Shown: piece after piece, positions 4,023-64,000 of the stretch
Position numbering within the stretch: the stretch's first letter is position 1
Layout of the letters: the number at the start of each line of letters is the position of its first letter
Assembly (NCBI GenBank): GCA_963969395.1
Contig: OZ017797.1
Location: 32,488,001-32,552,000 of the forward strand
DNA: 64,000 nt
Direction: 5' to 3'
Source of the DNA: Pseudoscleropodium purum
Lineage: Eukaryota > Streptophyta > Bryopsida > Hypnales > Brachytheciaceae
The notes under the pieces: model-generated
Databases searched by the model: none
What the model was told of the DNA's origin: nothing
The model's input: the letters and a program-made list of their open reading frames with translations, nothing else
Translations under genes and position numbers: made by a program

Positions 4023-5301
4023 TAAGGTGGGTGTCTTTCTGAGCTCTGATCCGAGTTTTCAAAGAGGTTGCACATTTCAAAACATTTTACAGTCATTTGT
4101 CTTTGAAAGATAAGTAGAAACTGTGTCTAACCTACTTTGATTCATAGTTTTGAGACTCTTTTTGAATTAGTTACGAAGTTCTGAAGTTGGAAAGAAGGAG
4201 CTCTAAAAACGTCCCTACACTGAAATGTCAACCGGTCATAAGACATTGTGTTAGACGACGCTTCTGGAGGAGGGCAATTTTAGGGCACCCCGCCCAACAC
4301 ACAGACATCAATATCGGCTCCCTTTCTGTTTTGTTTGGAGCCAAACGAATGGGAATTTTCATTGCGGAGGATTAGTTCCAAACAATAAGCCCACAGCTGG
4401 AGTAATGCGCAGCGAAGGGAAATTTCTGCTGGGTATTTGCATATGGATTTTTAATTCTCCGAATGCCGGTTCACTATCGGCAAGTTGTATATACGAATTT
4501 TGTAAATAAAGCTCCGGATACGATTCTGTCAAACCCCTTAGCATTCTGGATTTGGAGTGCCAAATTGTCAGTCTACTATAGAAATCTCTTAAACATAGGA
4601 TTCGTAGAGAATTAGCATTTAAGGCCTTGAAAATTGCCAATATAATGAATATCTGCTAACATGATGAAATGGAAATTTGTTCGATGAGTGCACATATCTG
4701 CTATGACAGCCGTGTCTGAGAATGGTATTTAATATTAAAACCAGGTACTCCAGCTTGCAAGAAGTATCAAACCAGCTGTACAGGTGAATTACTATCAAGG
4801 CTTCCTCTCCAATATTCTTGAATTCAAGATGTACTGTACAAGCATGTGTTTGTCAAAAGGATTGGAGTATCTTAGATATCTTGATTCATCTGAACATGGG
4901 CCCAAGATGTTAGAAACTCCTTCCAAGAATGGTCCACTTCACCTCTGAAATTCCAGCAACCTGGTTGAAAGGGAAAATCCTACGGATGATGTTGAGACGT
5001 GTCCAACGGGTAGGGTAATAGTCACAATCTTTTCCTTTTCTTAGTCCAGGAGGGTAGGGAGACATAATCCTCATCCTAAAGAACACACAATTGAGGTTTG
5101 CAACTCCCGATATACCATTTCGAACACAGATGGACAGTGTATTGCACTGCATCATTACCAGTAGTAATCGGGAAACCACCTTGTAGGTGGAAACTGTGAT
5201 CAGTAATAACACTTTTCAAATAAAGAATAGGTGACCTATATTGGTCTAAGAATTTCTATGCCCACTACTATTTTCGAAGGCCGCAATGTAAAACGCAGCA
5301 G
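4023..5301. other. Intergenic region between convergent genes
   Basis: The PhyH gene (+) and the tRNA-binding gene (-) converge here. I see no ORF with family resemblance, no RNA gene and no clear repeat. It should contain both 3' UTRs. Confidence 0.6.
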
Positions 5302-19678: not shown

Positions 19679-20716
19679 TTAGAAGGTTGGAAGGGCAGGA
19701 GCTATTGCTTCTAGAACTGCACTGTTTTCCGCATGTGGAATTACTGTACAGGCTTGCAACCTCTTCCTCCAGGTGGACTCAAGTTTACCTTGAACAATTG
19801 CACGTGCACGTTGTAGAACAGCATCGTCCCTCCGCCTAAACCAAGTGGCAGGATTCAAGAATTTGGAAGAAGAGGTATCCGGAGATTTGCTCAGCTTCAG
19901 GTCTAGAGCTGAACGCAAAGCCTCCTGATCAGCATATTGGCGAAGAACATCTGCTTCTAAACTGTCGTCTTCAGTCGCATCCAAACGACTCGTAAAATCG
20001 GAGAATACAAACCTACACCTCTCCTCGCACCATTCCCAACCGTCAAGGCTGCGTAATTCCCCTTCAATTACACAACAAAGACATTCCACGATCCAGGCGA
20101 GCTCACGAATCGCTAAGCAAATTTTGAAAAAGTTGATACACAAGGTGGTACTGAAGTCAAGGAAAAAGCAGCCTGGTTGTAGAATCTTTCACCACACGAA
20201 AGTAGCAATGCCTCCCCTTGCAACATAGAAGATAACAACAAAGAGCTTAAAACCCTGTTCAAAGAGATTGGATAATGACACTGCTGACGTACATGGATCG
20301 GAACCCTAGAAACCATAAACAAGGATTCCAAATCCCTTTCGGAAAAGTCCCCGAATTCTAGTCCCACTCGATTCACTCGACCCACTGCTTCCTGGTATTT
20401 CTTCATTAAATGTTTAAATTGGTTGTGCCATATCCTCGCTCTTTTCTCCAGATCCCCGATAGTCCGCAAGAGGTTATCCATCAGGAACCAAGAATTATCA
20501 TCGTGTCTGCCCGAGTCGTTATGACCAATTGTCTGGGGATCCGTCCTTGAGTCACTCAGCAGAGGAAGAGTTGACCAAATCTCCGAGAATAATGCCATAT
20601 CCCTTGGGAACGAGAGTGCACTTCGCACCAATATACTCCAAAATAAGTTGGGATTCGGTGTTATTCACTAGCAGAGTACATCACCACCCCTCACCCATCT
20701 CTACGCTCAAGGGCAT
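19679..20716 (-). pseudogene. Truncated kinase-family pseudogene (copy A)
   Basis: This is a damaged copy of the kinase genes at 28800-30848 and 40927-42933. Compared with them it has a nonsense codon about ten codons after the ATG at 20716 (GEGW then TGA), an internal deletion after VPKGYGI that removes some 45 residues, another stop soon after, a frameshift near 20113-20143 (after TFSKFA), and a complete loss of the kinase domain: similarity ends near 19,740 after WRKRLQ. The 5' flank (20717-20960) still matches the flanks of the intact copies, so the duplicated unit included the promoter. Confidence 0.85.
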
Positions 20717-27966: not shown

Positions 27967-30900
27967 ATGTTTAAACTATTCTGCTAATTTAACACTGTCC
28001 GTGTGGTGGCTCCCATTCTTTCAAAAATCCAGCAACTGGTGCGACCAAGTTTATCCTGTCTTTTGCTGTTTTTTGAAAACCAATAATTATTATGGAAACC
28101 ATGTTAAACAAACGCAAATAAATAGCTGAAAATAAGAAGCTTTATCATAGTACCTAAAGCACTAATTTACTGTTTCAAGTAAGGTTCTCCTAAAACTTCC
28201 TGACATGGTACTTTTGTCAATAAAAAGCCTGCACCCCCTCCGATTACAATTCAAGAAAAATCAAAACTCCTAAACAAATTTTGAGGCCAACTTGAGATTG
28301 GAAATGTCGTGCAACTCCTAGTCACAAAGTTGGTCTTCAACCACAAAGAAGTCCGAAGTCTATATCATGCATGATGGACAAACTGCGTTTGAGAGACGTT
28401 TCGTTCAAATAACTCCACATTCAACCAAAACAATGCTTGAACCTTCTAAAAATAACCTTCTATTATGACAAATTTGTTAAAACTGATTTAAATAACATGT
28501 TTAAACTATGATTGAAGCTAAAATATGCAAAAAAAAAAAAAAAAATTGAATTGTGGCGTTACAGAGTTTAACTTTCAAACGTTGCAATGTACACAAAAGT
28601 GTTTGATGAATGACTTTCAAGGATCTTGTACAAATGAGGAGTGCATATATTCACCCTGTCCAAGAACAATTTTAAGGCACACGATCACTGTGATGGTCCA
28701 GTCGTTACCGGATTAACCTCCTCTGTAAACCCAAAAAATGCCTTGTGGTTTGGAGCATCTACTGGTGACCACAGGTAACTATTCATTAGGCCCATGAAAC
28801 TAGGAATTCTTTTTAAGAAAAAAGCTCTGTGACCCATAAAGTACTTTCAACCGCCACAAAGCTTTCCGTATGTCTTTAAAACACGGTCGGTCAGAAGGAT
28901 CCTGAGCCCAACACTTGACAATCAGCGCCTCCAATTCCAATGGACACCAAGAAGGAAACAAAATCTCTCCACGCAAGACCTTCTGAATGTTCGCAAATGT
29001 CCTTGTCATCCCATCCTCGAAAGGAAGTCTTCCCGTGAAGATCTCGAAGCAGGTCAGCCCAAAGCTGTAAACATCTGCGGACCACGAGTAGCTGTCCTCC
29101 GACTCCCAAACCTCGGGAGCCATGTAAATGGGAGTTCCTTGCTTCCTGGTGTGAAAATGGGAACCCTGATCTCCGCTCTTGGATGATCCAAAATCGATTA
29201 ACTTGATGGTGTACTGAATTGGCTGAGTCCCGAAACAGCGTGAAATCGGATACTTATGACTGGCAAGAATATTACTCGGTTTGAGATCCCGGTGTATTAC
29301 TCGACACCTGTGCAAGTGAATCATGGCTTCTACGATCTGCAAGGCAATGTCAACTGCTACGAAAAATTGAAAAGGAGATCGAGTCTTGATAATTGTTCCA
29401 TCATCTCCTGTCAGGCGTTCGGTAATCAAATCATGGAGGTCACACTCCATGTGCTCAGTCACAAGAAAAAACTCCCGGTAGCAAGTCAGATCTCGTAGGT
29501 CCTCCTTGAATGCATACCCCTTCCACTCTACGACATTTGGATGCTGCACTCTTGCTAAGAAGCCTGTCTCTGCTTGTGCATAAACTTTAGATACATTCGA
29601 CATTGTAGACAGTGCCACAGTCTCTCCCAACCACTTGCACTTCTGGACGCTTTTAAAAGTTCCGTTTCGGCATCTGGAACCTGAAACCTGAACAAAACTG
29701 GTATCCGGATTGTCAATGACGAAAGCATCGAGAGCATCGAGAGGTAAAAACGACCCACGAGCGCAGGAGCTCACTTGCAACCTCTTCCTCCAGATGGACT
29801 GAAGTTCGCCTTGAACTAGTGCAACCTCCCTCCACCCAAACCAAGTGGCAGGATTCAAGAATCGGGAAGAAGAGGTACCCGGAGATTTGCTCAGCTCCAG
29901 GTCTAGAGCTGAACGCAAAGCTTCCCGATCAGCATTTTGGCGACGAACATCGGCTTCTAAACTGTCGTCTTCAGTCCCATCCAAACGATTCGTAAAATCG
30001 GTGATTACGAGCCTACACCTCTCCTCGCACCATTCCCAACTGTCAAGGCTCAATTGTTTCCCTTCAATTACGCAGCAAAAAGATTCCACAATCCAGGCGA
30101 GCTCACGAATCGCTAATGCAAATTTTGAAAAAGTCGGTACGCAAGGTGGTAGTGCAGTCAAGGCAAACGCAGCCTGGTTGTAAAATCTTTCACCACACGA
30201 ACGTAGCAATGCCTCGCCTTCCAACATAGAAGATTTCAACGTGCCGCCAAGAGGCCAGTTCAAAGAGACTTGGATATGATAATGACTTACACCGGTCGGA
30301 TCCTGAGAAGCCATAAACAAGGATTCCAAATCCCTTTCGGAAAAGTCCCCAAATTCTAGTCCCACTCGTTTCACTCGCTCCACTGCTTCCTGATATTTCT
30401 TCATTAAATGTTTACATTGGTTGTGCCATATCCTCACTTTTTTCTCCAGCTCCCTCATAGTCCGCAAGAGATTAATATCCACCGAAAACGAAAAAGTAAT
30501 ATCAAGTCTGCACGAGTCGTCGTTATGACAAATTGTCTGGGGAGACGTCCTTGGAGTCATTCGGCAGGAGGAAGAGGAAGAGGACAGATTTCCGAAAATA
30601 ACGATCCGTTTGTTCACATATAAGTCCTGGCTGGAAAAAACAGGGTACAGTTCCATATCCCCAATCGAAAACTTTAAAAGAGGAAGCGCCGTGTCCATAC
30701 GATCGACATCGTTCCAGCGAATAACATCATATCCCTTGGGAACGAGAGTGTACTTATCACCAATGTACTCCACATTAAGTTCAGCATCGGCGTTATTCAC
30801 TATCACAGTATATCGCCACCCCTCATCCATCTCTACATTCGAGGCCATTCACAATCTGGAAGACTAACATGCAGCGTACGTCACTTGTTGATATCCAAAA

Positions 30901-40926: not shown

Positions 40927-42933
40927 CTAGGGGAAATTAAAAAAGAAGAAGCTATGAGACCCATAAAGTACTTTCAACCGCCACAAAGCTTTCCGAATAT
41001 CTTCAAAACATGGTCGGTCAGAAGGATCCTGAGCACAACACTTTACAATCAGCGCCTCCAATTCCGCTGGACACCAACGAGGAAACAAAATCTCTCCACG
41101 CAAAACCTTCTGCATGTTAGCAAATGTCCACGGCATCCCATCCTCGAAAGGAAGCCTTCCGGTGAAGATCTCGAAGCAGGTCAGCCCAAAGCTGTAAACA
41201 TCTGCGGACCACGAGTAGCTGTCCTCCGACTCCCAAACCTCGGGAGCCATGTAAATGGGAGTTCCTTGCTTCCTGGTGTGAAAATGAGAACCCTCATCTC
41301 CGCTCTTGGATGATCCAAAGTCGATTACCTTAATAGTGTACTGGATCGGCACCCATTTACAACGTGATCTTGAGTATTTTGGGCTCGCAAGGATATTTCT
41401 CGGTTTGAGATCTCGGTGTATTACTCGACACCTGTGCAAGTGAATCATGGCTTCCACGATCTGCAAGGCAATGTCAACTGCTACGAAAAATTGAAAAGGA
41501 GATCGAGTCTTGGAAATTGTTCCATCATCTCCTGTCAGGCGTTCGGTAATCAAATCATGGAGGTCACACTCCATGTGCTCAGTCACAAGAAAACACTCCC
41601 GGTAACTATCCGGAAACCGTAGATCCTCCTTGAATGCATACCCCATCCACTCCACGACATTTGGATGCTGCACTCTTGCTAAGAAGCCTGTCTCTGCTTG
41701 TGCATAAACTTTAGATACATTCGACATTGTAGACAGTGCCACAGTCTCTCCCAACCACTTGCACTTCTGGACGCTTTTAAAAGTTCCGTTTCGGGATCTG
41801 GAACCTGGAACCTGAACAAAACTGGCATCTGGATTGTCAATGACGAAAGCATCGAGAGGTGAATACGACGCAGGAGAGCAGGAGCTGACTTGCAACCTCT
41901 TCCTCCAGATGGACTCAAGTTTGCCTTGAACATGTCCGCCTTGAACAAGGGCAGGATTCAAGAATTGGGAAGAAGAGGTACTCGGAGATTTGCTCAGCTT
42001 TAGGTCTAGAGATGAACGCAAAGCTTCCCGATCAGCATTTTGGCGACAAAAATCGGCTTCTAAATTGTGGTCTTCAGTCGCATCCAAACGATTCGTAGAA
42101 TCGGAGTTTACGAGCCTACACCTCTCCTCACACCATTCCCAATTGTCAAGGCTATGTAGCCCAAGTTGTTTCCCTTCGATTACACAACAAAGAAAATCCA
42201 CGTTCCAGCCGAGTTCACGAATCGCTAAAGCAAATTTCGAAAAAGTTGGTACAGACGGTGGTACTGAAGTCAAAGCAAACGCAGCCTGGTTGTAAAAAAT
42301 TTCCCCACAAGAACGTAGCAAAGCCTCCCCTTCCAACATAGAATTTATCAATGTCAGGTTTACAGCCATGTCCCAAGAGTCTTGGATACGACGAAGACGT
42401 ACACGGGTCGGATCCTGAGAATCCATGAACAAGGATTCCAAATCCATTTCGGAAAAGTCCCCAAATTCTAGTCCCACTCGTTCCACTCGATCCACTGCTT
42501 CCTGGTATTTCCTCAGTAAATGTTTACATTGGTTGTGCCATATCCTCACTTTTTTCTCCAGCTCGCCCATAGTCCGCTGGAGATCATCCACCGAAAACCA
42601 AAAACTATCATCGGGTCTGCCCGTGTATTTATAACCAAGAGTCTTGGGATCCGTCCTTGGAGTCATTAGGCAAAAGGAAGAGTTGACCAAATCTCCGAAA
42701 ATAATGATCCGTTTCTTCTCATATAAGTCGTGGCTGGAAAAAACAGGGGACAGCTCCATAACCCCAGTCGAAAACTTTAAAAGAGGAAGCACTCCGTCCA
42801 TATGATCGACATCGTGCCAGCGCATAATACCATATCCCTTGGGAACGAGAGTGTACTGAGCACCAATGTACTCCACGTTAAGTTCAGTATCGGCGTTATT
42901 CACTATCAGAGTATATCGCCACCCCTCATCCAT
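40927..42933 (-). CDS. Two-part protein kinase lacking the beta-3 lysine (copy C)
   Basis: Intact frame of 668 residues, paralogue of the gene at 28800-30848 with the same order: unknown N-terminal region, then kinase domain with GTFKSVQK, VALS in place of VAIK, HRDLKPRN, DFG, APEVW and DVYSFG. The first ATG of copy B corresponds to ATA here, so translation would start at the next Met, six codons later (MDEGWRY), losing nothing conserved. Small differences from copy B include loss of the WFGWREVALVQ segment and a Phe-rich tail (FFFFNFP). Both copies keep the reading frame over 2 kb, while copy A does not, which suggests selection on B and C. The function is unknown. Confidence 0.86.
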   Translation of the reverse strand: MDEGWRYTLIVNNADTELNVEYIGAQYTLVPKGYGIMRWHDVDHMDGVLPLLKFSTGVMELSPVFSSHDLYEKKRIIIFGDLVNSSFCLMTPRTDPKTLGYKYTGRPDDSFWFSVDDLQRTMGELEKKVRIWHNQCKHLLRKYQEAVDRVERVGLEFGDFSEMDLESLFMDSQDPTRVRLRRIQDSWDMAVNLTLINSMLEGEALLRSCGEIFYNQAAFALTSVPPSVPTFSKFALAIRELGWNVDFLCCVIEGKQLGLHSLDNWEWCEERCRLVNSDSTNRLDATEDHNLEADFCRQNADREALRSSLDLKLSKSPSTSSSQFLNPALVQGGHVQGKLESIWRKRLQVSSCSPASYSPLDAFVIDNPDASFVQVPGSRSRNGTFKSVQKCKWLGETVALSTMSNVSKVYAQAETGFLARVQHPNVVEWMGYAFKEDLRFPDSYRECFLVTEHMECDLHDLITERLTGDDGTISKTRSPFQFFVAVDIALQIVEAMIHLHRCRVIHRDLKPRNILASPKYSRSRCKWVPIQYTIKVIDFGSSKSGDEGSHFHTRKQGTPIYMAPEVWESEDSYSWSADVYSFGLTCFEIFTGRLPFEDGMPWTFANMQKVLRGEILFPRWCPAELEALIVKCCAQDPSDRPCFEDIRKALWRLKVLYGSHSFFFFNFP

Positions 42934-49384: not shown

Positions 49385-49392
49385 GTCAATTG
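49385..49392. repeat. Target-site duplication, left (GTCAATTG)
   Basis: Eight bases identical to 61156-61163, directly outside the left end of the large element. Confidence 0.88.
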
Positions 49393-49560
49393 CAGGGTTG
49401 ACACGACGTCCGGATGTCTGGACGCGGACGCTGTGTCCGCAGCGTCCGCTGACATTCGCAGTCCCGGCGGACGCAGTGTCCGCCGGGACCGCCCCGCCTA
49501 TCTGCCCCGTCCGCCTAGACGGCCCTATTTCCCCCGACCGCCCTACCCAAACTGCCCCAC
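49393..49560. repeat. Left terminal CGGACG/CGTCCG-rich island
   Basis: GC-rich subterminal block in an otherwise AT-rich area, with GTCCGG, GGACGCGGACGC, TGTCCGC and GCGGACGC. Comparable repeats next to hAT ends are transposase-binding sites in Ac/Ds. Confidence 0.7.
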
Positions 49561-49968
49561 GCTCACTCCCTTAATCTTTAAACAATTAAATGTTAAATGA
49601 AGTGCAATGGTTCGCGATTTGTTATTAAAACAATGTCTCTCATAAGTTGAAAGATTATAAAGTTTGACCACGAGTCCATGATAGTCTTGAAAGTATGAAA
49701 AAATTCCAATTCATTTTCAAAAGGCAAATTAAAAAAATTTGTGATTTCAAATATATATATATACTATTTAAAAAATCAAGATCAACACAAATACAAACAT
49801 AATCAATATGGGCAAAATGTATTCAATTTAATGTAGAATACCATACATTGTGCACATTTGGCTAATTGCACATATAATTTTTTTCATTCCAACTCTATAT
49901 TTTTAAACTAATTTTTAATGCCTATATAACCTATTCAAGTATTCAACTACTACTTCTGCACTACCAAT

Positions 49969-51459
49969 CTAATATAAATGGCGGAAATGTTCATCTAGCA
50001 TCGGCCAACGATATGTATTAGAAAATCGCGTAATCACATGGGCCAAACTAGTATTTTCATCGTCAGTCTTCGAAGAAATGCGCTTCAAGTAAGCATAAAA
50101 CACTTTTGCAAAGTCATGAAAGGCAAATTGTGTTGCACTAGGTGTTTTAAGTAGCACGTTGAAATACGCCTCTGACATGTTTCCACTCATCCGCCGAGCA
50201 ATTTTTCGGACGGCATACTCTTCCGACTTATGTGAATACATCGGAATGACTTCCACATCTGCACCTGCTTTATGCAAATATGCAATACGTGGATCCACCC
50301 ACCATCTCCTCTGCAAAGTTTGTTTCATCTCATTTGCTGATGTGAATGTGTACAAAGACTTCATTGGCTGAGAAGCTAAGGTGGTCATGCCCCAATTGCA
50401 AACTCCAATATACACACGTGACTCATCCTCTGGAAAATGCAACAAGATGTTGTCCGGAGAAAGATCATTGTGCAAATGTCCAGTAAGATGCACTGCATAC
50501 ATTATATGCATAAACGCCCATGTCAACTTCGTGCGCTTCTTCCGATATCGTCCTAAACGGTGAGCTTTTACAACCTCCTCTTCGATTGCATTTGTATACA
50601 TCAAACGGATTTGAATGTTGTCTGGATAGTCCTTATCCATATTCAACATTTGTCGAAGAATTCCACCATTCCACCAATACGCATAACCTTCACACGTCGT
50701 TCCGTGCACCGCAGCAAACCGTATCACACCCGCGTGTGGAATTTGAACAGCCATTGATTCGTTTTGATGTTCTAACTTTGCAAGATCGGGTCGAGTTTGG
50801 TGGTGAATGGATTTCTTTGCCGCAAACTCCCAGTAAGGAAGTATTCCTGGACATCCTTCAATACGAATCTTTCGAATCGTTGCATATCCACCTCTCATCG
50901 TTCTATCATCAACAGCAATCACGCGTGTTGTATCTGGAAGTGCTATGAGGTGCCGTTTGGTCCTTTCCGCTTCAGCAACTCCATCATTGCTTTTCTACCA
51001 ACCAATTGAACCAACTCGATTGTGCTTTTTGGCGAATGGAGCACATCGCCCCCTAAACAAGTCCGCTTTCAGAATCACTTCTTCAAACTGGGCGTCATTG
51101 GGTCGATATTCCTTGCCATATTTAACCAAAATGACTTTGGAATTCCACAAAGCGTCATGAACCTTGTTCTCCAAACATTTGGTGAAGTACGTTTTATGCA
51201 TTTCGTCATGCCACTTCGCCACATTCATTGCATTCAACAACATCTGTGTCATGTCTACCTTGAATTTAGACACGCACTCCTCTTGATATCTGATGTACTT
51301 ATTGTCTAAAGACAATGTTGTTTCCGATTCATAAAATTGAACGATGCGCTCCATCATGAATTTCTTGCATTCTTCTGAAGGACTTTGGTGAGCTACTTCC
51401 AAGTTCGATGGTCTCTCTCCATGTTTAAGCTTCGCAACCTTCTTCTTCCCGTTCGGCAT
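49969..51459 (-). pseudogene. Cargo ORF alpha: kinase-like protein with one in-frame TAG
   Basis: From ATG 51459 (MPNGKKKVAKLKHGE) the frame runs to 49969 with one interruption, TAG at 50995-50997 (codon 155), about 496 codons in all. The second half is kinase-like: a glycine-loop-like RGGYATIRKI, EFAAKKS as the VAIK equivalent, HNDLSPDN as the catalytic loop (D332), and CNWG where DFG is expected (N355), so the metal-binding Asp is replaced and activity is doubtful. The N-terminal 150 residues are not recognised. The closest CpG-rich island (51660-51952) lies just upstream and may be its promoter. The stop could come from CAG by C to T change. I infer capture or co-option by the transposon. 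Confidence 0.75.
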
Positions 51460-51659
51460 CGTGACAAATGAAATTGATATAGATCAAATTTTTTAATTTG
51501 AAATTGAATTCACGCGCAAGTGTTAAAAAAATTGGTAACAAGGGGGCCCCAATAAACCACTCTTGTGTTGCCTCGGAAAGGAGCTAATGGAGGATGAACC
51601 ACCAAGCTCTCCGCTCCACCTTGCATTCACAAGGGGCAAAGCAAAAGTGACAATGCGGA

Positions 51660-51952
51660 CGGCCCGTCCGCCCATCTTATTGGGGCGTGGACGGCCCCAA
51701 ATCGTCCGCCCGATCGGACGGCCACGGGCGGATAAATCTGCCGTCCGCCCGATCCGACGGGTAGCGGCGGATGGCCCCAAACCGTCTGCTTGATCGGACG
51801 GGCCGCGGTTGGCGGACGCATCAGCCGTCCACCTCCCCGAAACCCTATAGCCGTGTCTGCTCGATCGGACGGCCACGGGCGGACAAATCTGGCGTCCGCC
51901 CGATCGGACGGGCACGGGCGGACAAATCAAGCGTCCGCCCGATCCGATTTAT
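51660..51952. repeat. Tandem 39-bp CpG-rich repeats upstream of ORF alpha
   Basis: Six imperfect units begin at 51703, 51742, 51783, 51852, 51893 and 51932. Each has the form CGTCCGCCCGATCGGACGG followed by CACGGGCGGACAAATC, with a palindromic CCGATCGG core. They lie about 200 bases upstream of the alpha ATG. Confidence 0.8.
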
Positions 51953-52542
51953 TTTTCATATTTGAAAATAGAATCTAAAGAAGAACCACTAATTGTCTAA
52001 TTTGGGCATTTCTTCATACCAATAAGAAATCATTTTAGTTTTTAGCAATCGTTGAATGAAAAATAAAAAAATTTCAAATATTCAAATAATTTAATCTTTC
52101 ATAAATTAATTAGAAATACATTTATATCATTTACGAGTTTCTAAATGTAATAAACACACAACAATAATTTCAAAATACACACCATGCTAGTACATATTTA
52201 ACCTCGAATGCTAAATTCAAAAATAAACATAATATGGCTCTTACAAAATTACATTTCTTCTTCATATTTTTATTATTTATCAAAGTCACTTATAGCCGTA
52301 TACATCAACGCTATTATAAAATAATACAATGATGTCTTCAACAATATGCTTGCCTACATACATACTTGGTGTACACTATTACACAACACTTTTTGAAAAA
52401 GTGAACAAAATTGTTGTTCAAAATTGTTCTATTCATTTAAAATTTTGTACTACTTCTACCAATCTAGTGCTCTATACTTGTCGTGAGAGTAAAAATGAGA
52501 AAATCGAGCAAACACATGCTCACTATATACTTGCATGTTTTT

Positions 52543-53805
52543 TTATTCGGAATCTGAATCGGACTCAAATTGTTGACCGCTACCTCTTCTTTGTACTCCA
52601 ATGAATGGACCACCTCCGTAGTTTCCGTGATATCCACTCGGTGCACCTCCTTGTTCATAATTTGAATCTCCAAAAATGGGAGGAGGAACCGGAGTAGTAG
52701 GCTCTGATCCTCTTTCATTTAAAGCTCCATAATAAGAGGCCCCATGATGCCCGTATGAATCACTTCTAGTTGATTCCGGATAGTATTGGGTGCTTCCGTG
52801 AAGAGAGCAACTATATTGCGGGATTACATGGCTTCCTCCACTACATTCGGAGCCCACTTGAGTGGGCATCGTATAATATGAACCAGATTCAGTAGACCTA
52901 CCATAGTGCGTGTTGCCATAGCTACCTGTCCCACCTAGAGAGTCAATTTCAAGAGGAGTGCCATAACGAGAACCAACTGCACTTGAACCACCATAATGCG
53001 TGGATCCATAGCTCCCTCTTCCACCTTCATATCTATTTTGAGGATCGTAACCAAAGTATGAACCACCTCTTCCATGTTCAAATTCTCGCGTTCCATGTTC
53101 ATGTCCGTAGGACCCACCATGCCTATCTTGCCGTCCACGATCTTGAAGGCTTCTGCGTGTTGCCTCTTGCATTTGTTGCTCGAATTCAATTCATTCTCGT
53201 TCTTCTACCTGCTCGTGTCTAACTCCAAATGTGACAGGCGCTTGCATATCATCGTCATCATCGTCATCTGTCCACGCATCTTCAGCATCTCGTAAAACAA
53301 CTGAAGGTTGTTGTAGATAACCTCGATTAGACCACTCTGGCATGCAATTACTTGCGCCCCTCCACTGTGTATCTATAACGGCATCCGTGCGCGTATAGTT
53401 CTCTACATTGCAACCTGTAGCAGTACGCCAGTCCACGTCCTTGTGGAGTACAATCTCTACCCAAACCATTGCCATAACATTATAATTCATTATATTTGGT
53501 TTGGCGCTTTTAATGCCAAGAACTCGATGCACTTGTGTGTATCGTTGTTTAAAGTGCTCACTTTGGCACGTAGACATTTGTCCTTCCCAACGTGGCGCTT
53601 GGTGCTCTAGACGTTCACGTCGCCAAAGTTTTTGAATGTGAGTCATTTTTACATACTTCTTGCACATTGAGCAATCCCACACTCTTGTTGGTTCTTTTTC
53701 CCATTCCGGTTCACCCACGCACAATGGATCGGCCCAAGCATCCCAATCGAACAATTGGGGTCTTCCCTTTCAACTACTTTTTTTGGGTGTTCTATCTTTC
53801 GGCAT
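52543..53805 (-). pseudogene. Cargo ORF beta: unknown-domain protein with Gly/Ser/Tyr-rich tail, two in-frame TGA
   Basis: From ATG 53805 (MPKDRTPKKSS) one frame runs to TAA at 52543, 421 codons, interrupted by TGA at 53770-53772 and 53191-53193. Residues about 40-130 hold the motif MCKKYVKMTHIQKLW and later VDWRTATG; the same order occurs in ORF gamma. Then come an Asp run (DDDDDDD) and, after the second stop, a low-complexity tail rich in Gly, Ser, Tyr and Arg that ends SDSDSE. Such tails are common in RNA-binding or condensate-forming proteins, but I see no RNA-binding domain. Both stops can come from CGA by C to T. Function unknown. Confidence 0.7.
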
Positions 53806-54039
53806 GATGAAGTTGAAGCAAAGAGAATGAAACAATTAGAAAGCTTAAGAACCAAAATTTTGATTTAATTAATTAATTAAAATTTTACAAGCGTGAACTT
53901 TGTGAAAATTTGTAACAATGCCACAACAATCGTTCACTCAAAGCGGAAGGGGCGCGCAGAGCTTCCAATGCACTGGTCCGCCCACTTCAAAAGAGAACGA
54001 TTGTTCGGAATGAGCCGTCCGCCTCCCCATATATATATG

Positions 54040-54352
54040 CGGACGCCCCGAGGCGGACGTCCAGATCATGCGGACCACATCAGTCCGCGTGTCAATCGGA
54101 CGGCCATAACCGGGCGGACAGGGCGGACGGGTATCGGGGCGGACGAGGCGGACGGGGCGGTCGAGGCGGAAGCAGGATCGGGCGGACTGGGCGGACGGAG
54201 GATGGGGCGGTCGGGCCGGACAGGGCGGACTCCGGATCGGGCGAACAGGGCGGACGAAGGACGGGCGGATGGGGTGGACAGGGCGGATGGGTATCGGGGC
54301 GGACGGAGTGGACAAGGCGGACGCCGGATCGAGTGGACAGGGCGGACGGCTC
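54040..54352. repeat. CGGACG-rich island upstream of ORF beta
   Basis: Irregular tandem array of GGGCGGAC(A/G)GGGCGGACG with GTATCGGGGCGGACG spacers. It lies about 240 bases upstream of the beta ATG and ends in CTTGAACCCTA, which resembles the element's terminal GTCAACCCTG. Confidence 0.75.
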
Positions 54353-54414
54353 ATCTTGAACCCTAAACCTAATGAAGGAAATTGTTCTTTTTTCAAAATC
54401 TCACGATAGAGATG

Positions 54415-54615
54415 TTTAACCCGTAAAGTTCTTTTCACTAAAAACACTTCAAAACTCCCAATAGTAGTGCAAATATCAAGTCTTAGAAGAAAAATACTTT
54501 GGGGCATATGTAACCGTAGGATCTTGTAGTAAATTAGTTGGAAAAAATGTGGAAAAAATTTTAGACAAATCCACCATTTGGATTGTAAGATATTAGATAT
54601 TGAATGTTTCATTTA
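54415..54615. repeat. R1 dispersed repeat, partial copy 4, inside the hAT-like element
   Basis: Matches the left 200 bases of R1: TTAACCCGTAAAGTTC start, GTAGGATCTTGTAGTA, and the GATTGTAAGATATTAG block. It shows that another repeat inserted into, or was carried by, the transposon. Confidence 0.6.
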
Positions 54616-54619
54616 AGGA

Positions 54620-56753
54620 GGCTACTCAATTATGTCTATTAATGAACAATTGGTAGGCTAACAAACCTAACTTAGCATGTATTTTAATATTTGTTGCACT
54701 TGTTTTAGGAATATTATAACATAACACTATTATAATATTCTTATAAATGATATAATACTAAATCATTTCAAAATCAACAACATTCGAACACAATTTGTCA
54801 ATCTTGTCTTTCATACTCCTTTAATGATATATATATATATATATACATAAAATATATTAGATAAATCAACATGAACAAATCAATGATTATATATTTCATA
54901 GATCTATTCTTCATCAATCAAATAAGAGTGCATGTGCAAATATAGACAAAGATGGTTTCTCCATTTGTTGCCAAAAAATAGATAAACAAATAGAGAAAGA
55001 TATGAAGTGAATGTTACTTAGAGAATTGAAAAGAAAGAAATTGAAGTACTCAATTGCATTTTATTAAATTGGAAAATTGCATGTGGATGACATGAATTAA
55101 TCTTCATAGATGCTAAACTTATACGAGTTGCATTTCAACATTTATGATTTATGCAATTGATTGAATTGAAAGCTCTTGTAATTAAAGTTTCAAATTTTCG
55201 ATTCAATCATTCAAATTTGCAAGAGTGATTTATGATAGATTTATAACTTTAAATGTGAAAGCATTCAATGCTTTTATGCATTTGTTCATCAATATATTAA
55301 TTTTAGATAAATAATATATATTTTTTATAACATATGCATAAACCATTACATTAAAAAAAACAAAAAACTAAGAGCCAAGCCAAATAGGCTGGTCAAATGA
55401 AGAGAACAAGATAATAAGAGCCCTACGAGACAGAAAACAAAGGAAAAAAAGAAAATAGCAAAAGGATTCAAAGGAAGAAACAAGATGCATTCTTGCAAGA
55501 CCGTAGAATACATAATGATTTCAAAATCCAAACACAAATATATTTTCTATTTCAATGAGAGCCAAAAATGAACTACCTTGCTCTCAAAGATTGTATAATG
55601 TACACGTTATACAAAACGAACATATAACAGAAAGAGTAGAAGACATCGTTTATCATGATTGAAAACTGAAATAATTTTTTTTTCTATGTAGAATATTTTA
55701 TGAAATGTAACCATGTATTTAATTATCATAATAATTGGTAGAAATCTTTGTGCAATACATAGAAACATTTCATTCATGTGGAATTTTTTCATTTATTTAG
55801 GATTAAAATGGAAATATTATACTCTACAAAGTACAAACCAAAAACAATACCATATACCTAAGTTCAAAAGTTTGCAATTGTTTCGTGAATTCATTTTGAA
55901 AACTCAAACAAAGAAATATTTTATAATCAATATCTTGTTCATTTGAATCATTTCAAAAATCGAATTCCGAATTCAATTCCTATTTATAATAGAAATTATA
56001 TTTGTCAATTTTTTAGATCTCTAAACAATGAACCCTCTTTTTTAAAATTAATATTTAAAAACATTTGAAATAAGAATATTGGAATTACCCTTCAAAATAA
56101 ATATAGCACATGTATAATGTATTCTACTCCACCAACTCAAGTAACGAATTTTTCTATGTTTTTAAGAAAAAATATAGCCATACATGATTTGAAAGTTAAA
56201 ACATTGATTCTTTTTCTTTGTTTTCAAATCTAATCAAAATTTCATTAAGAAATATGAAAGACTCGATGTTCATTTGAAGATCGTGATGCACTTTTAATGA
56301 GAAATCACAACCTTTCATTAAATATCATGAGGTTGAAATCCATTAAACTATTTTTCTAATTATGTATTGGGGCCTTTTTTTAAAATTTCATTTGCTTACA
56401 ATGAAAATGGAATTGATTATTTTTGCAAAACATTTGATTTCCTAATGAACTTTAAAAAAATCCCCACCATCTTCAGATCTTCTCAAAACCTATTTAGAGG
56501 AATAATATCAGTAAATAATTCAAACATATTCAACTTAACCACATTCCCCTCATTCGTAAAACAATTTAGGGGAGAAAAGAAAAGGTTTAGGGTAATTAGG
56601 GTATAAGGTTTAGGGTTTACATTTTTTTTTTTTAAAATGACAAACTAATTACATTGATCCTCATTTAGTAGTGATTATTAGGCTGTTTTATTTTTGAAAT
56701 GTTACCGCTCTTTTTGAATAATAATGGCCTCATAGGATGCATCAATTGACAGC
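54620..56753. other. AT-rich centre of the hAT-like element, no gene seen
   Basis: No ORF with family resemblance. There is an (AT)n run at about 54,829-54,844 and a telomere-like stretch at 56584-56618 (GGTTTAGGG repeated with spacers) followed by a T run. Confidence 0.55.
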
Positions 56754-57058
56754 TGGGCGGACGCCGTCGGCGGTCAGTGTTTAATTGGGGCGGTCGGCGT
56801 GTCCAAAGTGCGGACGGCGTCGGAAGGCGGACAATGCGGACAGTCCGAGCGGACGCGCCGGTCGGACAGGCGGTCGGACGGGGTGGTCGGATGGGGCGGT
56901 CAGTCAGGGCGGTCGGACGGGGCGACGGGCAGATGGCACGTCCGCTGCCGAAGCGGACTTCGTCGGTCCGCACAGCGAACGCGAGGTTCGGGGCCGCTTC
57001 GCGCGGTCCGGGGTAGGTCCGGTGGCAAATGGCCTCTAGGTCCGGCGGCGGACGGCTA
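56754..57058. repeat. CGGACG/CGGTCGG-rich island upstream of ORF gamma
   Basis: GC-rich array of GGGCGGTCGG, GCGGACG and TCGGACGGGG. It ends about 220 bases before the ATG of ORF gamma, the same arrangement as for alpha and beta, so a promoter role is plausible. Confidence 0.75.
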
Positions 57059-57275
57059 TAAGGGTGGAGTGACTTTTCATTTCTTCTCACTTCAATTCTC
57101 CTTCGGTGCCAAGTTGGATGTGCTACTATTGCTTTATGTGCTAGTTGCTCCTACGGGGTGGAGAGTTGAGGTCCTCTATCTTGTGTTACTGTGCTGCGGT
57201 TGATGCCATCACTTTTGACTATCACATGAGATTTTTTTATTCACTTCAATTGGTTATTGATTCCAATTGACAATC

Positions 57276-60200
57276 ATGAATGGCGAAGGTGATCAAAATA
57301 TGGATGGGGTGACTCCGGGAAGCGAAGTGAAGAAAAAAAGCAAAGTGAAGGGGGCTACGCACGACCTTCGGCTTGACATTTTAAATGACCCTACAATTAA
57401 AGCAGAGAGCGGGTGGGAAGATGAAGATGCGGAGTATTGGACATCAAAAATGTGCAGGACCTATGTTAAAATGTACCACATTAATAAGTTGTGGCCTCAG
57501 GAGTCGCACAAGAGTCATATACGGGATTTTTGTTGTAAACCATGGACTTGCAACAACAAACATTTTGTCCATCGATCTGAAGAGGTGTGGTGTGTTCTAT
57601 TTGGAAACAAGTGCAGAAGTAAAGGCTATATTAATTATAGCGTGGCGTGTATGGTTTATGCGGAACTTATATTAGAGTGCAAGATCGATTGGAGCACGTT
57701 TTTGATGACAACAGCTTGCCCACTTCTACTTGAAGCCAATCAAAAGGACATTCCCGATTTGTACAATTCAGAGGGAGAAACAGAAAAAGTATTAAAAAAT
57801 ACTATTGAGGTGAAAACGGATGGTGTGGAGAAAGCCTCAAATGTTGAAGAATTATGGTCTGTACAATCTCCAACAAAAACAATCAATGAAAGCTCTTCGA
57901 AAAATGTAGGGAAAGATGTAGAGGCGCAGGAGGGTGAAGTCTTTTCCATAGCTCCAACGTGTTTGACCTTTATACCAAATGTTGCGGCACAAACGCAAAC
58001 GGAGTTTGTAAACAAAGGCAAGGTTTGCACGGAACCCGGGGAAACTTCAAAAAGTAAAGTAGACGAAGTCTTGGCGGAGAAAGTGGAAAAGGCTAATGCT
58101 ACGATTGATAATCTGATAGCCAATAATTGTTTTGATAGTTTGGTCTACAAATCTCCACCTGTGCATTAAGGCGTTGAATCTAGTTCAGCGTTAAATTTAG
58201 AAGACAAAGTACATACGCCTCGTGGACAAGGCGTGACGATTGATAATATATCGTCATTATGGAGTTCCGAGCGTAAAAGGCGGGCGGAGGAGTTTCCAAT
58301 TACAGCGGCATTGCCAAGTCCTCTACATCGAACCTTGCAAAACATGTCCAATCCAAAACAATTGGAAAATCTTTTGAAGCTCTCGATTCAGTTTGCTAAC
58401 CTTCATGAAAAAATAGGCGGATCGTCGAACCCCGATGATGGTGCTACTACTGTTCCAGTGAGTCCACTTGCAAATCCAAAGGATGTTGTACATATACTTG
58501 ATACAGCTTTCAAGATAATGATGTCAGCTGAATTTTTAGCGCAAGCTGCTCCGACTTTTATGAATTTGGCCAAGGAGTTTTCTTTAATAGCACCAGAGAT
58601 GTTGAAAGGTGCTATAGCATTTCAGAATCTCACGAAGACTTTCGGACCACTTTTCGAAGAAAGAGATGTTCACATACTACAATTGGTGGAATATAAGAAG
58701 AAAATTGCTGACCTTGAAGGAGTGGAAGCAAGGTGCAAAGTGTTGGAGTTGAAATTAAAGACTTCGGAGAGTAAGGTTGAACATTTAAATCAACAATCAT
58801 CGAGGCAAATGGAAGAGTTGATGAAGATGCGTAAACAGATTGAAGATTTGCAAGGGACCTCCAAAAATCCAAGTGAGATTGCAATCTCACCAGTGATTGT
58901 ACTCGGAGACAGTTAAGAGACTCAAGAGAATGAAGATAAGCTCTCTCTTCCTTTTGATAAGGCCGAAGCAAGCGACAATCCTGCCATTGTGAATGTACAA
59001 GAAAGTCACGACATGAGCATGTTAAAAGCGACACAACAACCATCAATGGAAAAGCTTTCATCCGTTTACGTGAATGCGGAGACGCAAACGGAGAGTTGTG
59101 ACTTTGAAGAGTTGAAGCATAAATTGGAGGAGGCAATTGAAGCAAAAGGAATCATTGAATCCAAGTTGAATCAATTGCAATTGTGCTTGGATTTGAAGAA
59201 GTTTATGCCATCTAGCGGCTTGGAGTCTCGATGGTTAGTATGGGTACAAAGACTCCAAGACAGACCCTCTGTAGTATCTCGAGCAATGGCAGGTCTTCAA
59301 ACATTGGCAATGGAGTCGAATGAAAATTGCGATGCCATTCAAAGCTCTTTGAATTGGTTCAAGACTATGTTTGACCAACATCCTTCAAAGGGATATACGG
59401 AGATCACATGTTGGGGAGACATGGATGCCATGTTTGAGCATTTAAATCACACAAAGAAGGACCAAGCTCCACCCATCAATTGGGCCTTGGAAGTAGAGGA
59501 AGGATGGGTCCCTTACAACACACTTTCAGCACACATCAATGTGAAAGACAAGCGAGTGGTGCATGCTTGTGATCCAGCCTCTCCAATCTTGGATGGTTGT
59601 TGTAGCCTTTGCCAAGGCCTCTTCGGACCGGAAGGTGCGGTAACCATGGGCCAATGTCGCCACACTTTCCATGTCACTTGCATTGTAAAAGCATCACTCA
59701 TTCATTCGGTGTGTGCCGAGTGTCGTAGTCCATTGAGTGCTAGGTTCTACGAAATGTTTGGTATCTTGGAAGCTATGCCTCCAGGCTACGAGTACAATCG
59801 TTGGAATCTTCCTCTTGATCAAGCGCCGTACAAATTTCAAAATTATCAACATTGGGGGAAGCCAATCCGGTGGAATGCAAATGAACAGAGGCATGATTTG
59901 TACGAGGAATCTCAGCAACCATTGGATTTGGATGTGTGGATGACTCACAATAGAGAGGTGGAATTGCGGGCTCGAGGAATCGTAGATGACGCGGCCCTTG
60001 AAATGTTTTGTCGCAACATGGGGGGACATTGGAGCTTGCAACACGAAAAGTTCTTTCGTTTTCTAGATAAAAAAGTGGAGAGAGGACCAGAAGACAGTTG
60101 GGTGGAGGTGAACCATGGAAAAGAGTTCGATGAGCAGTATAAGGCATATGACCGCACCCTCGTAGGTAGGGCCCTTCTATTGTCGAAGTTAGAAGAGGCT

Positions 60201-60662
60201 GCAAAAGTTCGTGCTGTCTACAATACAAATGGACTAACAAGCACAGGACATTCATCTGTAGATGTGGCAGCAGCATTTGATAGGCGCATTGGCGATATTA
60301 TAGGGCATTGGAAGGCTTTCCTATTGGATGGAGACTGCCTCACAGTATGGCAAGGGAAAGGAGATGATGAAGTTGTTCAAGCAATGGTAGATCGTGTGGA
60401 GAGCAACTTGAGAACCTTGAAGGTAGACGAAGTTGATTTATCACCGAAAAGAAAACAAAAAAGGAAGCATGAAGAGGACGATGACTTCTCTCCGGAAACC
60501 AAGAAACAATTTCATAAGGTGGACATCGAAGTTCAATCTGGAGGGCGAATAGTCCATCCAAGTCAACAACGGTCAACTCGTCAATCATCTGCTAAACTCC
60601 TCGGTACAGCAGATTTTCCTTTTGTTTTGGGAGAAGGTAGTGGTCCATCCGGTGGAAAGTAG
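57276..60662 (+). pseudogene. Cargo ORF gamma: unknown domain, coiled coil and RING-H2 protein, two in-frame TAA
   Basis: From ATG 57276 a single frame of 1129 codons runs to TAG at 60660-60662, interrupted only by TAA at 58167-58169 and 58914-58916. Residues about 47-147 match ORF beta (MCRTYVKMYHINKLW, then YINYSVACMVYAELILECKIDW). Residues about 445-550 form a coiled coil. A second helical stretch follows near 605-640. Residues 775-818 are a RING-H2-like finger: CSLC, CRHTFHVTC, CAEC. Near 1055 is a nuclear-localisation-like SPKRKQKRKHEE. Two TQTE motifs occur (near residues 240 and 600). RING proteins usually recruit ubiquitin-conjugating enzymes; that is the likely role if intact. Both stops can come from CAA by C to T, and there are no frameshifts in 3.4 kb, so decay is recent or the stops are bypassed. 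Confidence 0.78.
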
Positions 60663-60964
60663 GATTTGAGGAGAATTTTGTTTTTTAAAAATAATGGTCC
60701 TTTCATTGTTTAAAAACAAAAAAGAATGTGAAAGATTTAGATCTTAAAAAGATCGTATAGGATTCAATAGTGATATTGGAACTATGTTTTCATGTATTTT
60801 GTTTATATATATATATTTATATATAAAGATGCTATATTTTCATTTGCGTATAAAAATATTTTTATATGTACATCTTATTTTACGTGGATGCATTCATTTG
60901 TGATTGTGTAACATTCAAATTACATAACAATATAAAATTTTCTAATGACTAATGGCAATGCGAA
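60663..60964. other. 3' flank of ORF gamma
   Basis: AT-rich with a TATATATATA run; likely 3' UTR and polyadenylation region of gamma. Confidence 0.5.
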
Positions 60965-61137
60965 GTCCGCCCCGTCCACCCTGTCCGTCTGCCCCGTCTG
61001 CTCTGTATGCCCGACCGCCCCGCCCGTCCGCCTCCCGTCCGCCCCACCCCGCGCGTCCGCCTTCCGACGGCGGGAGGGACGTTGCGTTCGCTAGCGTCCG
61101 GACGTCCGGAAAACGGACGCTATTTTGGGGCGGACAT
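60965..61137. repeat. Right terminal CGTCCG-rich island
   Basis: Block of GTCCGCCCCGTCC-type repeats with TCCGGACGTCCGGA near 61,098, facing the left island in inverted orientation, 18 bases inside the right terminus. Confidence 0.7.
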
Positions 61138-61155
61138 TGAGATTCGTCAACCCTG

Positions 61156-61163
61156 GTCAATTG
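61156..61163. repeat. Target-site duplication, right (GTCAATTG)
   Basis: Identical to 49385-49392. Confidence 0.88.
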
Positions 61164-62786: not shown

Positions 62787-64000
62787 ATGGCACAAGTCCA
62801 ACACTCAAGGGTGCAACCCCTTCTCTTTGATGCTTTAGCCGCCGATGGAGCAAATTATTCCGATTGGAGCGACGATGTGAAGATCCACCTATTTGCCGAG
62901 AAATTAGACCATGTTTTGATGATTGACGCAGCTCACCTAGCAGTTATAGAAAATGATATAAAATCGAAGGTCCTTTTGCTATTGAGGAAGCATCTCGATC
63001 CAACGCTACGACAACAATATACAAGAATTCACAATCCACAACAACTATGGAAGAAATTGGAGGACCGCTTTGCACACGATCAAACAATCTTACTCCCTCA
63101 AGCTAAGAGCGAATGGAACAATCTGAGAGTGGCAGACTTCCCCACCTTTGCTGCTTTCAACTCCGCTCTCCACCGAATTGCTTCTCAGTTGTATCAATGG
63201 GGACAAGAAGTCTCAGAGACCGAGTTCATAGAAAAGACACTCTCCACCTTCCCTACTGCTTCTTCTATAATTTCTTGGCAGTACAGAAATATGAATTTTC
63301 AAACTCATTCCAAGTTAATGTCCCAATTACTATTAGCTGAGAAAAACCAAAATTTGTTGCTTCGAAACAATGAATCTAGGCCTCGACCTGAGGCTCACAC
63401 TAATGCACTTGCAATTAGACAACCAAAGGGAGGCCATGCCAAAGGGAAGTAGCAACAGTGGAGGAACCAACAACCGTGGAGAAATCAAACCAGCCAGTAG
63501 CAAGGCCCATAGCACTCTGGCCATGGCCCCCGTGGCCCACCACAGCAACGCAACGCCCCTTATCCCATACCTGGCCGAGGCCAGATCCCTGCCCGCGGCC
63601 CGAGATGGACATCGCAGTAGTATCCCACGTCATCCAGGCCCTATTCTGGCTAGAGGCCACCTCAGAGAGCTAAGTTCCCTCCCCAAAACTCCTCGAATAC
63701 AACTTGTTTTCGATGCAGTAAACCTGGTCACAAGGCAAATGCATGTAATACTGATGCATATTGTGTGAGACTTTATCAAGACTTTCAAGCATTGAAAGCA
63801 AGGCAACCTGAGGCTTATTCCGTAGATGCCCCATCATATGATGAGGTAGAACCTGAGAATTATATGGTTGGATTTTCACCTTCTCAGGCAAATATTCAGT
63901 CCATGGCACAAGATGATGTAGCCCTTTTGGACAGTGCCTCTACCCATATGATTTTGAGAGATAAAAAGTTTTTTACTAGCCTGTCCTCTGTTGAGAGTGG
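62787..64000 (+). pseudogene. Copia gag-pol reading frame with five in-frame TAG, cut by window end
   Basis: From ATG 62787 a gag of the UBN2/Copia type runs 221 residues (features include SDWSDDVKIHLF, LWKKLEDRF, FNSALHRIASQL). The same frame then continues to the window end, but TAG codons occur at 63450, 63498, 63510, 63618 and 63651, all in a Gln/Arg/Pro-rich linker. After it the frame encodes a CCHC zinc knuckle (C at codon 307; C-x2-C-x4-H-x4-C) and the start of the aspartic protease with LLDSASTHM (D382). Protease, integrase and reverse transcriptase lie outside the window. No frameshift is present. The element is inserted in R1 copy 3. Confidence 0.85.

Follow-up and report, generated by a model that had tools for sequence, protein, structure and literature searches.

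A large hAT-type element without a transposase is probably the helper member of a hAT family with several genes

The locus raises the question of what moves a large hAT-type element that holds three genes and no visible transposase, and whether those genes are captured cargo or belong to the family. In the window (the whole 64,000-nucleotide stretch of DNA that we analyzed), the element covers positions 49393-61155 and is 11,763 bp long. It ends in exact 10-bp terminal inverted repeats (TIRs), CAGGGTTGAC at 49393-49402 and GTCAACCCTG at 61146-61155, with a second inverted block, GACGTCCGGA, close to both ends, and it is flanked by an exact 8-bp duplication; two 8-mers drawn at random from the window are identical at a rate of 4e-5. 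These borders, the length, and the presence of three outward-reading genes (kinase-like, middle, and RING) had all been claimed in a preliminary description of this DNA, and we verified them in the window. The features of the element are as follows, where a form junction is a junction with the transposase-bearing form described below.

49385..49392, no strand: left copy of the target-site duplication, GTCAATTG, an exact match to the right copy
49393..49560, + strand: left terminus: the TIR CAGGGTTGAC plus a GC-rich subterminal island holding 6 GCGGAC/GTCCGC motifs, a count not reached in any of 500 shuffles
49969..51459, - strand: kinase-like gene of 496 codons with a single in-frame stop at 50995-50997; some other copies are uninterrupted
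51640..51960, no strand: island 1, on the 5' side of the kinase gene; the GCGGAC/GTCCGC motif occurs 9 times; form junction at ~51666
52543..53805, - strand: middle gene, ~420 codons, two in-frame stops; start placed by comparison with copy A
54030..54370, no strand: island 2, on the 5' side of the middle gene; the motif occurs 15 times; form junction at its edge, ~54368
54371..56740, no strand: AT-rich central spacer, 26% GC; also in the transposase form
56750..57060, no strand: island 3, on the 5' side of the RING gene; the motif occurs 9 times; form junction at ~56867
57276..60662, + strand: RING-finger gene, ~1,128 codons, two in-frame stops; the copy A frame is uninterrupted, 1,132 aa
60965..61155, - strand: right terminus: a GC-rich subterminal island holding 5 motifs, plus the TIR GTCAACCCTG; form junction at ~61011
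61156..61163, no strand: right copy of the target-site duplication, GTCAATTG, an exact match to the left copy

A Pfam scan of seven ORFs of the element gave no transposase domain at E <= 1. Its three genes contain five in-frame stops in total; the window copy is a decaying insertion.

The family to which it belongs is very abundant, with 6,720 CAGGGTTGAC sites in the genome and 264 sites for the reversed pattern. Copies with the same borders and different duplications, a check proposed at the outset, were found: copy B (L041+L042) aligns to the window element from end to end at 93.6% and has its own duplication, CATGTGTA, and a 9.57-kb element, L065, has the same ends with GTTGAAGA on each side as a perfect duplication. 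The 8-bp duplication is exact in these three elements and in L027, a 3,385-bp internal-deletion derivative; for copy A, no target duplication was found. Among 30 RING loci, a set that takes in the window copy, copy A, and copy B, the RING arm aligns through to the element's final or penultimate base in 28; in the other two it aligns to element position 11589 and the end motif is also present. The right-end motif was recognized in 26 of the 30.

A copy with the same ends and a transposase was also sought, and L065 is that copy. It carries the same kinase gene (a 505-aa frame without stops), and a hAT transposase replaces the RING and middle genes. The transposase matches DUF659 (E 2.1e-21) and Dimer_Tnp_hAT (PF05699, E 4.5e-9) and has two in-frame stops; at its N-terminus, zf-BED scores under the cut-off (E 0.031). 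It has 64 close matches among those listed (best 64 of 1,107 candidates), some of which have open frames of 1,152-1,155 aa with no stops. When the flanks of L065 are joined, a single integrase frame with one stop runs across the join. The joined flanks gave 18 matches: 10 run across the join at 87-96% identity and are empty sites, two are the element's own two flanks, and six are relatives at 70-78%. The genome-wide counts, copy B, and these empty sites rule out chance or an assembly artefact.

The 8-bp duplication, the CAGGG-type TIRs, and a hAT dimerization domain in a same-ended relative are all present, and the earlier claim of a large element of hAT type that lacks a transposase is supported. 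We refer to the window type as the R-form (kinase, middle, and RING, 11.8 kb) and to the L065 type as the T-form (kinase and hAT transposase, 9.6 kb), of which one complete element was read (n=1). The two forms share their ends, the kinase arm, and the AT-rich center, which is 94% identical over 54368-56867. The kinase arm has diverged equally within the R-form (3.96-4.27%) and between R- and T-form (3.82-4.41%; three R-form copies and one T-form). The window element is not a simple internal deletion of the T-form, since it has two genes absent from the T-form that was read. Our preferred reading, which we consider likely, is that it is a helper R-form of a multi-gene hAT family, mobilized in trans by the T-form.

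The places where the two forms diverge point to the islands. Islands 1-3 and both termini have a GC content of 0.65-0.71 and a CpG observed/expected ratio of 1.13-1.38, bearing out their earlier description as CpG-rich; the spacers and genes of the element lie at GC 0.22-0.45. GCGGAC, the motif of the termini, is repeated in the inner islands, and in none of 500 shuffles was the array matched in any of the five islands. The blocks common to both forms have five inner edges and, with island limits drawn by eye, four of these fall in or at islands, which agrees with the suggestion of a repeated gene-plus-island module. We also looked for a CpG footprint of demethylated termini, and there was no protection from decay at the right terminus in 25 of the 30 RING loci (L019, with the same flank as L013, and four loci without a recognized right end were left out). 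CpG transitions per cell were 8.7% at the right terminus and 5.1% in the gene; A/T sites also differ more at the right terminus (1.7% vs 0.26%), so the CpG figure there is inflated by alignment noise.

The kinase-like protein scores under the Pfam cut-off, and its assignment comes from modeling and alignment. An AF2 model (mean pLDDT 82, pTM 0.64) gave 50 listed Foldseek matches, all kinases by title (one of them phosphotransferase only), with a best E of 5.5e-8 and target TM of 0.37-0.64 among the matches listed; the superposition on known kinases is loose, with an rmsd of 9-12. Across 33 aligned sequences (the query and 32 of the 55 relatives found), K215, E234, D332, N337, and D355 are invariant; we take these to be the catalytic Lys, the Glu, the HxD Asp, the Asn, and the DxG Asp. 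The D and W of the DWG motif are invariant in the alignment, and the window copy itself reads NWG, having lost the DxG Asp. The kinase-like proteins are predicted to have a protein kinase fold, together with the catalytic residues. Relatives that keep these residues come from Ceratodon purpureus and metagenomes, with 126 members in one Ceratodon cluster; judged by sequence, this is a wide family. From the Ceratodon names among these relatives, the genome appears to be that of a moss. No relatives were confirmed in the viral and bacterial/archaeal contigs in which they were sought. The longest ENA contig for kinase P0051 and for hAT transposase P0083 is 27,639 bases in each case, which suggests that the two genes may lie on one contig.

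The middle and RING proteins share an N-terminal domain (29% identity over 188 aa in copy A, E 8e-21 in a single comparison), in line with the original view of two related genes of unknown domain. The C-terminus of the middle protein is Gly/Tyr-rich. The RING protein has Pfam matches slightly under the cut-off (zf-RING_11, E 1.2e-5; zf-RING_2, E 1.3e-4), and its C-terminal half has no confident fold (mean pLDDT 48). In a distant hAT family of the same genome, a RING homolog adjoins the transposase, so the RING gene is an old partner of hAT elements.

All three genes recur at ~90-95% identity, with 86 matches listed for the kinase gene (best 86 of 1,547 candidates), 150 for the middle gene (best 150 of 1,211), and 79 for the RING gene (best 79 of 851). 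The 86 listed kinase copies divide into 33 with a divergent transposase, eight with a divergent RING gene, and 45 with neither; none has both. The middle gene was found with none of the 33 kinase-transposase copies and with six of the eight kinase-RING copies among the matches listed, and a listed middle gene accompanies 35 of the 79 RING copies. A hAT-domain match lies within 25 kb of five of these 79; no such pair was read in the arrangement of the R-form or T-form. In the listed copies, then, the gene sets are largely separate between forms, and the family's genes seem to be divided among more than one type of element. Four-gene elements could be missed in these counts because the best 79 of 851, 64 of 1,107, 86 of 1,547, and 150 of 1,211 candidates were scored. 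At two listed C46 loci, the middle gene and a transposase read away from each other at distances of 4.4 and 4.6 kb, so there may be more than two forms.

Variation between RING copies gives a measure of constraint. In an alignment of 24 rows including the window copy (six of the 30 loci, L012, L013, L019, L027, L033, and L038, were left out owing to an interrupted or poorly aligned upstream part), the observed/expected nonsynonymous:synonymous ratio is 0.92 for singletons and 0.88 for variants found in at least two copies. This variation looks nearly neutral, and the 24 copies do not demonstrate that the RING gene was under selection during the burst. Stops among shared variants number eight, with 16.2 expected, in a list that favors little-changed copies.

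How these genes came to be in the element can be explained in several ways. The preliminary description spoke of cargo with host-like or novel ORFs. In one account, the element would be an ordinary Pack-type hAT in which a host kinase and RING gene were captured, the transposase was lost, and amplification was a matter of chance. The absence of a transposase from the window element fits this account, as does the near-neutral variation; both protein kinases and RING fingers are also widespread among host proteins. Against it stand the wide kinase family, with catalytic residues that are invariant in the 33 aligned sequences, a sister form with the same kinase beside a transposase, and the distant transposase paired with a RING homolog; recurrence of the kinase, middle, and RING genes in at least 86, 150, and 79 matches also speaks against cargo. 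No host parent gene of the kinase was seen among the best 86 of 1,547 candidates. We regard this account, already weakened, as improbable. What is supported of the earlier interpretation is the large transposase-less hAT and the gene-island module, not the host-like cargo.

An older four-gene element might instead have given rise to both forms as independent deletion or replacement derivatives, reducing the R-form to a passive parasite with genes that are no longer of consequence. L027 shows that internal deletions with a perfect duplication exist, the other hAT family keeps transposase and RING gene together, the two C46 loci join middle gene and transposase, and the window copy has its five stops; yet R-form copies with uninterrupted frames are still present, and the majority base at every column of the 24-row RING alignment gives no stop. 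We hold this account to be possible, if on the unlikely side. A strictly bipartite system, in which T-form jumping needs the RING or middle protein of the R-form and two complementing elements are maintained, would accord with the lack of any kinase copy bearing both arms among the best 86 of 1,547, with the numerous first-look candidates for each gene, and with the equal divergence of the kinase arm within and between forms. Both forms carry the kinase, however, and the two middle-gene/transposase loci blur the split; we hold strict dependence, too, to be possible, if on the unlikely side.

Under the preferred reading of a helper R-form moved by the T-form, we infer that the T-form transposase would move R-form, T-form, and short derivatives through predicted binding to the terminal GCGGAC arrays. 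The arrays 5' of each gene would mark putative promoter regions controlled by the transposase or the helpers, and might also provide homology for swapping whole gene modules. A less secure proposal is that the proteins encoded by the kinase, middle, and RING (E3-ligase-like) genes act as helpers that aid transposition or counter host silencing. We put forward only tentatively the fuller proposal of a multipartite hAT, in which transposase and helpers (the RING ligase-like and middle proteins) sit on separate, same-ended elements that co-amplify, complement one another, and swap modules via arrays of a putative transposase-binding motif.

The textbook hAT element has a single transposase gene. 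The family resembles the hAT superfamily (Ac/Ds type) and its MITEs in its 8-bp duplications and CAGGG ends, in the DUF659 and Dimer_Tnp_hAT domains of the sister-form transposase, in its abundance of short end pairs, and in having an internal-deletion derivative; unlike the one-gene element, it has three further genes, and its gene sets are divided between same-ended forms. Searches of open-licence PMC papers listed none that, by title or abstract start, describes hAT elements partnered by a kinase or RING gene. According to PMC5735166 and PMC13317346, VANDAL MULEs carry VANC anti-silencing genes, and VANC target motifs often come in tandem within noncoding stretches of the element. The likeness lies in an accessory gene on a DNA transposon and in such motif repeats, but VANDAL is a MULE and the sister-form transposase here is a hAT, and CpG decay at the right terminus lends no support to a demethylating accessory protein. 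Pack-TYPE elements (PMC8903248) are likewise non-autonomous with coding DNA inside, whereas the genes here recur in fixed order, one of them paired with a distant hAT transposase. ToxhAT (14 kb, carrying ToxA; PMC12506042) is also a large hAT-named element that moves a gene, but its cargo is an effector gene, whereas the genes here recur with hAT transposases.

The recurrent kinase, RING, and third protein suggest that hAT transposition, or escape from silencing, can be multi-protein, and the many natural copies of the family are material for testing this. The division of genes between same-ended forms makes possible a direct test of whether the T-form needs a helper form, and the islands offer a sequence handle on putative transposase binding, promoter control, and module exchange together.

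Short elements with these ends are also present. On ~2.8 Mb of one contig, 27 of 34 end pairs are short. At five of the eight loci L001-L008, no duplication pair was seen within the 3 kb examined; the other three show one and the same short element, in which seven of the eight duplication bases are alike.

The window element is probably the helper form of a hAT family that carries several genes. Its inverted ends are exact, with CAGGGTTGAC at 49393-49402 and the reverse complement at 61146-61155, and GTCAATTG flanks it left and right as an exact duplication, bearing out the borders claimed in the preliminary description; exact 8-mers are shared between random position pairs of the window at a rate of 4e-5. 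Genome-wide (313 Mb, 52 contigs), CAGGGTTGAC occurs at 6,720 sites compared to 264 for the reversed pattern. We paired neighboring plus and minus sites among the first 100 listed, all on a single contig, and obtained 34 pairs no more than 15 kb apart. Most of these (27) are spaced 224-384 bp and represent short MITE-like elements; the other seven are spaced 1,028, 1,937, 3,663, 8,781, 9,545, 9,568, and 11,649 bp. One 384-bp short element has both termini in diverged form together with 10 GCGGAC/GTCCGC motifs.

Further copies with target duplications of their own, which the preliminary description had proposed to look for, are present in the genome: copy B aligns with the window element from end to end at 93.6% and carries its own duplication, CATGTGTA. 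Copy A matches over its full length as two blocks (93.7-93.9%); no duplication was found in its flanks, and it adjoins part of a transposase-form element. When we fetched 30 RING loci, counting in the window copy and copies A and B, the alignment ran to the last or next-to-last element base in 28 and to element position 11589 in 2. The right-end motif was recognized in 26, and the flanks of these loci differ except in L013 and L019, which have the same flank. Another locus, L027, is an internal-deletion derivative of 3,385 bp with a perfect duplication. In L037 (oriented, 3640-4647), the right end of the RING form directly abuts an inverted left arm (element positions 1000 to 1); this junction is an aberrant product or an adjacent fragment.

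We searched the genome with each of the three genes; the counts take in the query copies where these are listed. The RING protein (549-aa part) gave 79 matches, all at 92% or more (the best 79 of 851 candidates), the kinase 86 matches at 92-100% (the best 86 of 1,547), and the middle gene 150 matches at 90-100% (the best 150 of 1,211). The earlier view of these genes as host-like cargo is not supported, given recurrence at 90% or more in at least 79, 86, and 150 places, respectively; they appear to be the transposon family's own. The predicted fold of the transposon kinase is that of a protein kinase, superposing loosely on solved kinases, and the catalytic residues are invariant across 33 aligned sequences (the query plus 32 of the 55 found). 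Its relatives include two Ceratodon purpureus proteins, at 47% and 42% identity, the latter representing 126 sequences, and many metagenome proteins with identity up to 72%. Two relatives of the kinase and transposase, P0016 and P0135, are NCBI entries under a 'Bacilli bacterium' MAG, a label that probably reflects plant contamination.

Two hAT matches sit between CAGGGTTGAC ends spaced 9.55 kb on contig C1. One of these elements, L065, is 9,568 bp long, has ends as in the window element, and is flanked on both sides by GTTGAAGA; it is a same-ended copy with a hAT transposase, as the preliminary description had hoped to find. L065 contains a stop-free kinase gene and the same AT-rich center as the window element, and its transposase (DUF659 and Dimer_Tnp_hAT), with two in-frame stops in that copy, occupies the place of the RING gene. 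Joining the L065 flanks yields a single integrase frame across the join. Because 10 of the 18 genome matches to the joined flanks run continuously through the join (87-96%), L065 inserted with duplication, a result that holds for the sister element and not for the window copy; the remaining matches are L065's own flanks (2) and distant relatives at 70-78% (6). At G000:C1 2658498-2690152, two oppositely oriented transposase-form elements are separated by about 12.5 kb. Their listed kinase and transposase matches are 100% identical, and the pair looks like a recent inverted duplication.

Among the 86 kinase copies listed, a transposase or hAT-domain match lies upstream in divergent orientation in 33 (4.7-7.3 kb away), and a RING gene does so in 8 (5.6-10.9 kb away; 7.3-7.6 kb in 6 of the 8); none has both arms and 45 have neither. 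The chance expectation, computed for the 150 hAT and 79 RING matches listed, is about 1.1 kinase copies with a hAT-domain match within 13 kb and 0.7 with a RING match within 16 kb. The listed middle gene accompanies 35 of the 79 listed RING copies, 34 of them at 5.0-5.4 kb, and among the matches listed it is found with 6 of 8 kinase-RING copies but 0 of 33 kinase-transposase copies. Among the matches listed, the gene sets of the RING and transposase forms are largely separate. For two of the 150 listed middle genes, a transposase lies upstream in divergent orientation, at distances of 4.4 and 4.6 kb (5' end to 5' end):

G000:C46 404754-412006, middle gene divergent from transposase
G000:C46 480762-487870, middle gene divergent from transposase

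These loci may represent a third gene combination that counts against a clean split. A hAT-domain match lies within 25 kb of 5 of the 79 listed RING copies, and the transposase list holds two RING-transposase pairs no more than 20 kb apart among the matches listed: in one (L033), another family member has apparently inserted within the RING gene, and in the second the two genes share a strand.

The window element and L065 share three main blocks, 49644-51666 (96%), 54368-56867 (94%), and 61011-61155 (88%), plus a match of 91 bases (84%) inside island 1, the GC-rich stretch 5' of the kinase gene; their left termini are only 71% alike. The main blocks have five inner edges. With island limits drawn by eye, four fall in or at GC-rich islands: 51666 (island 1), 54368 (island 2), 56867 (island 3), and 61011 (right terminus). 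The fifth, 49644, misses the left terminal island by 84 bp on its inner side. A partial second transposase form beside copy A has its matching edge at about 56846, likewise in island 3. The five islands contain 6, 9, 15, 9, and 5 GCGGAC/GTCCGC motifs, where shuffle means are 0.3-0.8 and the observed count was reached in none of 500 shuffles of each island. In a sample of three RING-form copies and one transposase-form copy, kinase-arm divergence is similar within the RING form (3.96-4.27%) and between forms (3.82-4.41%), whereas the center diverges more between forms (4.4-5.0%) than within the RING form (2.4-3.3%).

In a second hAT family (L063, L064), a transposase frame of 1,172-1,174 aa is divergent from a frame of 699 aa (in L064 the sequence ends before the frame does, leaving 670 aa). 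In a single comparison, this partner frame and the RING protein align as two collinear blocks, one at 28% over 261 aa (E 2e-22) and the other at 30% over 125 aa (E 1e-13). The transposases of both families share 38% identity over 333 aa within the 701-aa part that was compared. Judged from these sequence matches, the RING gene appears to be an old hAT partner. In the large elements of this second family (L063 and L064), the transposase and the RING homologue are divergent on either side of tandem repeats; no ends were found for it. At other hAT-domain loci (L043, L045-L049, L051-L055, L062), ends starting CAGGGTTCA (e.g. CAGGGTTCAAGAACTTGTGCACCT) lie near the transposase domain.

The window's gene copies are decaying, with one in-frame stop in the kinase gene and two each in the middle and RING genes; uninterrupted copies of the element's genes were found. 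Across an alignment of 24 RING copies, C-to-T and G-to-A account for 410 of 557 singleton changes, and the nonsynonymous to synonymous ratio is 0.92 of expectation for singletons and 0.88 for variants in at least two copies, a pattern that has the look of post-insertion decay. Transitions per cell in the RING gene reach 5.1% at CG, 6.6% at CHG, and 2.0% at CHH, with A/T-site change at 0.26%. In RING copies L009-L038, otherwise little different, C-to-T type changes exceed A/T-site changes about 8-25x in CG, CHG, and CHH contexts; this excess is methylation-type decay.

Given the identical ends, the sister-form transposase would be what moves the window element, and the position and motif content of the islands suggest that they may act as promoters and transposase-binding arrays. 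One possibility among others for the helper proteins is that they counter silencing, as VANC does for VANDAL MULEs (PMC5735166). The right-terminus CpGs of RING copies show no protection from change; A/T sites there vary more too, probably reflecting alignment noise. The RING and transposase forms may depend on each other.

The window contains these other features:

16512-18032, plus strand, JmjC_2-domain protein of 506 aa (E 2e-21)
20113-20598, minus strand, fragment related to the two kinase ORFs below
20998-22746, minus strand, Bud13-domain gene (E 2.9e-39) in which near-identical 'RRRNAPDISPP' repeats form a long run
28800-30848, minus strand, intronless protein kinase ORF (Pkinase E ~1e-40)
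40927-42933, minus strand, intronless protein kinase ORF (Pkinase E ~1e-40)
62787-63452, plus strand, fragment of a Copia-type gag to the right of the element (Retrotran_gag_2 E 2.6e-4, short of the Pfam cut-off)

The two kinase ORFs and the fragment are a small local gene family. The ORFs are similar (668-682 aa), have a long N-terminal part in common, and at a glance are unlike the transposon kinase.
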